Shown here piece after piece: positions 24,034 through 25,150 of a stretch of DNA of 38,115 nt. The position numbers and the translations under genes are program-made. The stretch spans positions 1 through 38,115 of the forward strand of contig DUVY01000108.1 of the NCBI GenBank assembly GCA_012840805.1, written 5' to 3'. Each line of letters opens with the position of its first letter. Positions within the stretch are counted from its first letter, which is position 1. The DNA is from Clostridiales bacterium. GTDB taxonomy: Bacteria > Bacillota > Clostridia > Christensenellales > DUVY01. Below the pieces are notes generated by a model that searched no databases, was not told the DNA's origin, and saw only the letters and a list, made by a program, of their open reading frames with translations.

Positions 24034-24062
24034 TTGTTTAAAAATATTGTCGGTGGTATAAT
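24034..24062 (+). promoter_or_regulatory. Promoter of the corA leader transcript
   Basis: TTGTTT (24034-24039) and a perfect TATAAT (24057-24062) are separated by 17 bp. The expected transcript starts near 24069, about 137 bases before corA, just at the ribosome binding site of the leader peptide. Confidence 0.65.
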
Positions 24063-24085
24063 CAATTTTAGGAGAGTTTATAATT

Positions 24086-24124
24086 ATGGACGACCCCAGC
24101 GGGAGAAAGAATATAATAATATAG
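24086..24124 (+). CDS. Putative 12-residue leader peptide before corA (MDDPSGRKNIII)
   Basis: A short frame with a good ribosome binding site (AGGAGAG, nine bases before the ATG) encodes MDDPSGRKNIII and stops at TAG 24122-24124. It lies between a clear promoter and corA. The stop codon touches the first of two overlapping hairpins. Two aspartates followed by proline right after the start is the kind of sequence known to destabilise ribosomes at low magnesium, as in the mgtA leader peptide MgtL. The match is in type only, not in sequence. No family is recognised, and coding is inferred from the start signal and position. Confidence 0.5.
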   Translation: MDDPSGRKNIII

Positions 24125-24200
24125 GCAATTAACCGCCCGTTTAAAAAATATTAATGCGCGGTTAATTGTCCCGCGCATTTTCTAATAATAAATAGGCGGT
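24124..24200 (+). promoter_or_regulatory. corA leader with mutually exclusive hairpins (attenuator-like)
   Basis: Hairpin A pairs 24124-24136 with 24158-24170 (13 bp including one G-U, core CAATTAACCGC). Hairpin B pairs 24153-24161 with 24171-24179 (9 bp, GC-rich, AATGCGCGG) and is followed by TTCT. Together with the last stem bases this gives a short T-rich end. The two share 24158-24161 and cannot coexist. When B forms, ACCGCC (24132-24137) is released and is perfectly complementary to GGCGGT (24195-24200) in the corA ribosome binding site. This layout can regulate at termination, at translation, or both. Confidence 0.55.
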
Positions 24201-24205
24201 GTGTT

Positions 24206-25150
24206 ATGATAAGATACTTTTTTACGCCTGTCGGCGAAAAAAACGCTCATGAGATTAATTCCGCTACTAAAAATTGCTGGATTCATATGGAAAACCCGAG
24301 CGATTTGGAAGTGGAAAACATATCGGCTGTCACGGGCGCGCCCGCGCAGATGATAAAAGCGGCTTTGGACGAAGAAGAGCGCGCGCGTATTGAGATTGAG
24401 AATCAATGCAAGCTTATATTGGTCGATATCCCGATCATAAACGAATCCGAGGACGGCGAATCTTATTTTTATAACACCTTGCCCTTAGGCGTTATAATAA
24501 CTTCCGAGCATTTTATTACCGTCTGCCTAAAACAGACCTCGGTTATAACGGATTTTTTTCAAGGCAGGATAAAGGGCTTTGATATTAACAAGGCTACTAG
24601 GTTTTTGTATCAAATACTTTATAATAACTCGGTCAAATTTTTGCATTATCTAAAGCAAATAGACAAATTAAGCAACCGCATACAGCTCAAATTGCACAAA
24701 TCTATGAAAAACAAAGAACTTATTCAGTTGCTTGAGCTGGAAAAGTCTTTGGTTTATTTCTCAACGTCCATAAAGTCCAATCACGCCGTTTTGGAAAAAG
24801 TTTTGGCAAGCTCAATTGTCAAACACTATGACGAGGACCAAGACATTTTGGACGACGCTGTCATAGAAAGCCGTCAGGCTATGGAAATGGCTGATATTTA
24901 CCGCGATGTGTTAAGCGGCACAATGGACGCTTTCGCCTCGGTTATCGGCAATAACCAAAACAAAGTGATGAAACTCTTAACCGCTTTGACCATTATCATC
25001 ACAATCCCGACCTTGATAGCGTCCTTTTTTGGAATGAACACGCCGCTGCCATTACAAACCCACAAATTCGGGTTTTGGATAATACTGGGCATCTCGGCGT
25101 TATGCTCAGGCATTGCCGCTTTGATTATGTATAGGAAAAAGATGTTTTAG
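24206..25150 (+). CDS. corA: CorA-family divalent metal (Mg2+) transporter
   Basis: The 314-residue product has a large cytoplasmic N-terminal domain (1-250) with a long helical region. The first membrane helix (about 253-275) leads into the family signature GMN at 276-278. A second helix (about 290-308) and the basic tail YRKKMF follow. CorA proteins are pentameric channels for Mg2+, and some relatives carry Co2+, Ni2+ or Zn2+. The usual acidic MPEL loop after GMN is TPLP here, as in many Firmicute relatives, so the ion is not certain. The ribosome binding site AGGCGGTG is four bases before the ATG and lies in the structured leader. Confidence 0.92.
   Translation: MIRYFFTPVGEKNAHEINSATKNCWIHMENPSDLEVENISAVTGAPAQMIKAALDEEERARIEIENQCKLILVDIPIINESEDGESYFYNTLPLGVIITSEHFITVCLKQTSVITDFFQGRIKGFDINKATRFLYQILYNNSVKFLHYLKQIDKLSNRIQLKLHKSMKNKELIQLLELEKSLVYFSTSIKSNHAVLEKVLASSIVKHYDEDQDILDDAVIESRQAMEMADIYRDVLSGTMDAFASVIGNNQNKVMKLLTALTIIITIPTLIASFFGMNTPLPLQTHKFGFWIILGISALCSGIAALIMYRKKMF

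Follow-up and report, generated by a model that had tools for sequence, protein, structure and literature searches.

In this work we analysed the region upstream of corA in a Clostridiales bacterium (assembly GCA_012840805.1, contig DUVY01000108.1); the whole stretch of 38,115 nucleotides is called the window, all coordinates refer to it, and all features described lie on its forward strand. The corA gene (24206–25150) encodes a CorA-family Mg2+ transporter of 314 amino acids with an FFGMN motif. The product matches TIGR00383 with an E value of 3e-31, under the equivalog cut-off, with the GMN motif kept, and orthologues are found throughout Clostridia. hisC lies upstream. The putative promoter (24034–24062) is composed of a −35 TTGTTT (24034–24039), a 17-nt spacer and a TATAAT (24057–24062), the latter being part of an extended −10, TGGTATAAT (24054–24062), as read from the sequence. 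The −35 alone is too weak to be detected in a promoter scan, and the promoter call would depend mainly on the extended −10. From the position of this promoter, transcription is expected to start at about 24069–24070, directly 5' of the Shine–Dalgarno (SD) sequence AGGAGAG (24070–24076) of a short open reading frame. This ORF, MDDPSGRKNIII (12 codons, ATG to TAG, 24086–24124, stop codon 24122–24124), is a candidate CorL/MgtL-like leader peptide. Acidic residues and proline fall within its first five codons (D2, D3 and P4), as in leaders of the MgtL/IRD type, and Asp-Asp-Pro, codons 2–4 (24089–24097), is the proposed ribosome-destabilizing element.

Two hairpins follow the leader ORF. The 5' arm of hairpin A, the putative antiterminator (24124–24136), starts at the last base of the leader stop codon and pairs with a 3' arm (24158–24170) that overlaps hairpin B; A has 13 bp and a folding energy of −21 kcal/mol (z −4.2 to −5.9), and none of the shuffled sequences was equally stable. 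Hairpin B (24153–24179, 24153–24161 pairing with 24171–24179) is intrinsic-terminator-like, with 9 perfect bp and −13.6 kcal/mol (z −3.5), and its T-tract, TTTTCT (24178–24183), is short and weak. As four bases of the 3' arm of A (24158–24161) are also used by B, the two hairpins are mutually exclusive. ACCGCC (24132–24137), which also lies within hairpin A, is a candidate anti-SD for corA, predicted from its complementarity to GGCGGT (24195–24200) in the corA SD, AGGCGGTG (24194–24201). The leader stop codon is 81 nt from corA, with the terminator in between. A preliminary description had placed the promoter, the 12-codon ORF, both hairpins and the ACCGCC/GGCGGT pair exactly to the base, and has to be amended only for the weakness of the T-tract and of the −35. 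It had also seen no M-box core, and indeed a covariance-model scan of the window found no match to the M-box riboswitch (RF00380) above the gathering score, nor did any of the 4227 families of Rfam 15 match the window at that score.

The leader was compared in three sequences, the window and two congeners, L002 (genome G001) and L003 (genome G002; CorA 80% identical). The congener leaders, MDDPSGRNNYKI and MDDPSGRNNNNI, lie at the same place as the window ORF, with the leader SD retained and the distance from TATAAT to this SD about equal. Both congeners retain the first seven residues, MDDPSGR, and differ there only by synonymous codons (GAC/GAT, CCC/CCA/CCT), while residues 9–12 vary (III, YKI and NNI). 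The terminal AUA run had been suggested to be a second pause point dependent on lysidine-modified tRNA-Ile; this idea is dropped because residues 9–12 are free in the congeners. The segment that follows the stop, TAGGCA..TAACCGCCC, is kept, and ACCGCCC is invariant across the three sequences, the corA SDs of the relatives being GGTGGT and GGTGGC. Hairpin B reads GTGCGG/CCGCAC in the congeners and GCGCGG/CCGCGC in the window, that is, one compensatory change from C:G to U:A; this single covarying pair, among three sequences, was reached by 163 of 500 shuffles and is not significant alone. The T-tract after B is longer and strong in both congeners (TTTTTATTTT and TTTTTTATTTT), which supports the assignment of B as a terminator. 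Conservation in the genus thus extends, beyond chance, to the leader ORF with its first seven residues, to the segment after the stop and to hairpin B.

The idea that the position of the ribosome decides between A and B was examined by partition-function folding from a moving 5' boundary that represents the front edge of the ribosome, a crude model. In the window, the predicted probability of hairpin B is 0.00 with codons 1–9 in the P-site, 0.24 with codon 10, 0.91 with codon 11 and 0.95 with codon 12. On bare RNA, as beyond a ribosome that has stalled early or dropped off, the value is 0.001, whereas shuffling of this stretch gives 0.88 on average; with a ribosome at the stop codon it is 0.947. 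The same switch is predicted in five corA relatives (L003, L010, L011, L016 and L019) and in one mgtE leader (L237); in L233 it is weaker and sensitive to how the hairpin is drawn, and L024 and L028 are predicted to switch via hairpins that engulf the corA SD. Thermodynamic folding predicts no switch in the congener L002 or in L174; in L002, hairpin A appears only as a transient co-transcriptional intermediate. The fold switch is therefore predicted for the window and for the majority of relatives of the terminator type, and these are the cases in which folding reproduces the earlier proposal that a ribosome at the stop leads to B and corA OFF, and early ribosome loss to A and corA ON. Computationally, then, leader translation selects between two alternative folds, as in CorL-type leaders. 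A transcription terminator as the universal output was considered and ruled out, as many relatives carry an anti-SD instead. Among the 62 leaders that permitted the test, the change in accessibility of the gene SD was in the predicted direction (+0.064 versus −0.104 for the null, Wilcoxon p 5e-5), with a ribosome-mask null that retains composition and ignores evolutionary relatedness. In five leaders inspected by eye (L046, L057, L063, L071 and L076), four segments are arranged as leader start : ORF 3' half : post-stop : gene SD.

The leader is not confined to the genus. In a first reading of about 110 corA upstream regions, mostly from Clostridia, about half had an SD-preceded ORF of 12–50 codons, with starts such as MDADP, MEADP, MDSDP, MDCDP, MDSGP, MDVGP, MDEGP and MDSIP, among others. 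With a strict rule (a short ORF that has an SD and begins with M[DE]x(x)P), a leader was found in 52 of 102 non-redundant corA upstream regions of the first survey, whereas shuffles gave 0.7 such loci on average. This start accounts for 28% of short ORFs upstream of corA versus 0.7% elsewhere in the same loci. When samples at the level of class and phylum were added, 80 of 201 non-redundant corA genes had the leader, in Clostridia and sister classes; MDDPGTSR and MDDPSQLY are corA leader starts found in other classes, and more distant CorA proteins are mostly without leader. At least 27 changes are required to explain where leaders are present on a CorA tree of 165 rows, and leader type tracks CorA clades. 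Several leader-negative loci hold variants in which one element is lost (MECDTGNSS, MDSDYRSS and MEDGHSP). Pairwise identity among corA leaders is 0.80, 0.46 and 1.00 at positions 2, 4 and 5, the values at positions 2 and 5 being partly preset because the search pattern selects them, and it is at most 0.14 from position 6 onwards; family conservation is thus restricted to the region around D2 to P4/P5. The Asp and Pro residues are encoded by several codons. In 196 whole genomes of Clostridia, an SD followed by MDADP gave eight matches, seven of them directly before corA, with none for the reversed control. Of the 13 matches to a second pattern, MD[x][D/G]P, six lie before corA or mgtE; its reversed control had five matches. 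A loose scan for TATAAT upstream of all leaders was too unspecific to bear on promoter enrichment, being positive for 68 of 107 while the shuffles had a mean of 57 and a maximum of 67.

The preliminary description had regarded the switch as built separately for corA, which is not supported, as such leaders also precede mgtE: 27 of the 48 mgtE upstream regions in a class-wide sample carry one, commonly MDxxPLP. The upstream region of the mgtE gene of the window genome itself was inspected, and no such leader was found there. In two mgtE loci the leader ORF overlaps the mgtE start (in L201 as an ATGA-type overlap, in L210 by reading through into mgtE), and coupling must therefore follow a different logic in these two. 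A second family of short ORFs with a good SD (MESGSSSID.., MESGGSSNID.., METDGSSTVSGD..) is present upstream of mgtE, at −260 to −465 in L205, L206, L207, L208, L209 and L211, farther upstream than the M-D-x-x-P leader. These surveys show that the start of the leader peptide is conserved and specific for Mg2+ transporter genes, and the test proposed at the outset, conservation in neighbouring species of the early acidic-Pro frame and of both stems, came out positive well beyond the genus.

Rfam scans of 80 corA loci revealed an upstream M-box in 17, and all 17 also have a leader (15 strict, two of the MECDTG variant); M-boxes also precede several mgtE leaders. The tandem corA loci are L018, L032, L047, L054, L055, L057, L058, L065, L067, L114, L117, L119, L120, L122, L123, L124 and L127; in L047 one element of the pair is farther upstream than in the others. 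The M-box (ykoK, RF00380) resembles the present element in that it controls corA and mgtE in Firmicutes, but it is an RNA aptamer without peptide, and it is absent in the window while lying in tandem upstream of the leader in relatives. No report of a single transcript carrying two different kinds of Mg2+ sensor was found in the literature searched, of which coverage was partial. Other RNAs were observed nearby: a fluoride riboswitch near corA in the group with MDSGPEH leaders (L035:2967-3038, L111:1393-1464), and a raiA RNA (RF03072) adjoining corA in two related genomes (L005:2732-2940, L020:622-841).

Three enteric leader peptides can be compared with these leaders. The preliminary description had drawn a parallel with MgtL, which stands in so far as E. 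coli MgtL starts MEPDP (MG1655 record), but CorL is the closer parallel, since E. coli ysgD starts MDTPSR. In MG1655, ysgD (b4799, 4001218–4001274; L256) is a UUG-start ORF before corA that reads MDTPSRYWLTILSSRINS and is annotated only as protein YsgD; given its UUG start, its position and its single Pro, ysgD is probably CorL. Expression of corA varies inversely with translation of corL, which accounts for most of the Mg2+ response (PMC11552253), and the enteric corA motif occurs in gammaproteobacteria only (PMC6429828). Like CorL, the window leader is a short M-D-x-P ORF with a single Pro (MDTPSR versus MDDPSGR) that precedes corA by about 110–200 nt and lies in a leader region for which two exclusive folds are possible. 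In contrast, enteric corA relies on Rho and a long leader, whereas the clostridial leader is short and intrinsic-terminator-like or acts by an SD hairpin, and clostridial mgtE also has a leader. In MgtL, ribosomes drop off at EPDP (PMC11282234). The likeness lies in the acidic residues and Pro at positions 2–5 and in drop-off at low Mg2+ turning the gene ON, and the clostridial mgtE leaders MDxxPLP are strikingly similar (MDYPDPLP, MDPEPLS); mgtA, however, encodes a P-type ATPase, is Rho-dependent in Salmonella and has a PhoP-controlled promoter. About half of the clostridial leaders have a single acidic residue (MDSGP, MDVGP) or no Pro (MECDTG), and by analogy such starts should be weaker than the EPDP assayed in E. 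coli. MgtQ, between mgtC and mgtB of Salmonella, uses 1:2/3:4 versus 2:3 pairing to free the gene SD after translation abortion (PMC8092293). It has Asp at codon 2 and Pro at codon 4, its SD-freeing logic resembles that of the SD-type clostridial leaders, and the four-segment arrangement seen by eye in five of them is the logic reported for it; it differs in being intergenic, of eight codons and translational only, and its Pro is dispensable. An amino-acid attenuator responding to Asp or Pro was rejected as a comparison, as the peptide has one Pro and two Asp at its very start and no run of cognate codons near the terminator. As to common ancestry of the clostridial and enteric leaders, five residues appear too few to tell.

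We consider it likely that the window element is a CorL/MgtL-like, ribosome-sensing Mg2+ attenuator of corA, a reading in which translation of the leader, ribosome drop-off and the Mg2+ signal are inferred. In this model RNA polymerase would start just 5' of the leader SD and a ribosome would begin MDDPSGRKNIII. At low cytosolic Mg2+, the nascent Met-Asp-x-(x)-Pro would destabilize the 70S ribosome by intrinsic ribosome destabilization (IRD), the mechanism of MgtL, causing a pause or its loss at codons 2–5; after early loss the RNA beyond the stop would be bare and hairpin A would form, removing the 5' arm of terminator B and hiding the anti-SD ACCGCC, so that corA would be transcribed and translated. 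At sufficient Mg2+, it would reach codons 11–12 and the stop, and the ribosome would then cover the 5' arm of A; B would then form and terminate transcription, and ACCGCC could mask the corA SD, leaving corA OFF. In relatives, the output of the same leader would be either intrinsic termination or sequestration of the SD in a hairpin, for corA or for mgtE. The recurrence of the leader start before genes for Mg2+ uptake, together with its likeness to the E. coli leaders, suggests that the ribosome itself is probably the Mg2+ gauge. Several findings speak against this reading: the weak T-tract in the window, the lack of a predicted switch in L002 and L174, a covariation of only one pair, the many leaders with a single acidic residue or no Pro, and the mgtE of the window genome, which has no leader of this kind.

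The alternative that survives best, although unlikely, is an attenuator that is likewise translated and built in the same way but responds to another signal, such as general translation stress, the activity of EF-P or EttA, the charging of Pro-tRNA, or a divalent metal other than Mg2+. EttA and bL31 modulate leaders of the MgtL/MgtQ type, CorA proteins can carry Co2+ and Ni2+, and half of the peptides have few acidic residues, all of which would fit such a signal; yet the leader occurs with both corA and mgtE, unrelated as these Mg2+ transporters are, and stands in tandem with the M-box, a Mg2+ riboswitch. For Pro-tRNA charging in particular, classical attenuation uses codon runs near the switch, a role that one early Pro cannot serve. 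It is less probable still that the short ORF merely aids translation or coupling, as a standby or re-initiation site, with hairpins A and B acting without peptide-specific pausing. Re-initiation is peptide-independent, yet M-D-x-(x)-P persists while its codons change synonymously, and the stop in the window is 81 nt from corA with a terminator between them; what speaks for such a role is that several mgtE leader ORFs reach or enter the mgtE start, as in L201 and L210. That the two hairpins sense Mg2+ by RNA alone, as a riboswitch with an incidental ORF, seems very improbable: they are stable and mutually exclusive (z-scores −3.5 to −5.9), but there is no Rfam match, and among relatives the RNA structures are wholly different while the peptide start is constant. 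A chance ORF in an intergenic region is refuted by the enrichment of the leader, the specificity of SD-MDADP and the conservation of the start, and has no remaining support.

Beyond the window, we lean towards the broader view that M-D-x-(x)-P leaders are a widespread class of Mg2+-sensing nascent peptides of corA and mgtE, in Clostridia and enterics, which in Clostridia would work without Rho, by intrinsic termination or by hairpins at the SD, and would often follow an M-box as the second Mg2+ sensor of a tandem. In the literature searched, Mg2+ sensing by ribosome destabilization on a nascent acidic-Pro peptide is described only for enteric bacteria, and nothing was found there on leader peptides of corA or mgtE from Firmicutes, most subscription journals being outside its coverage. 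If the leaders before clostridial corA and mgtE do sense Mg2+, this would be a general bacterial strategy, and the mechanism could run on intrinsic terminators or SD masking in place of Rho. About 100 natural variants would be offered for reading the minimal destabilizing peptide, and the tandem of M-box and leader raises the question of why two Mg2+ gauges are placed on one transcript. The proposal would also provide a functional reading for many unannotated short ORFs.
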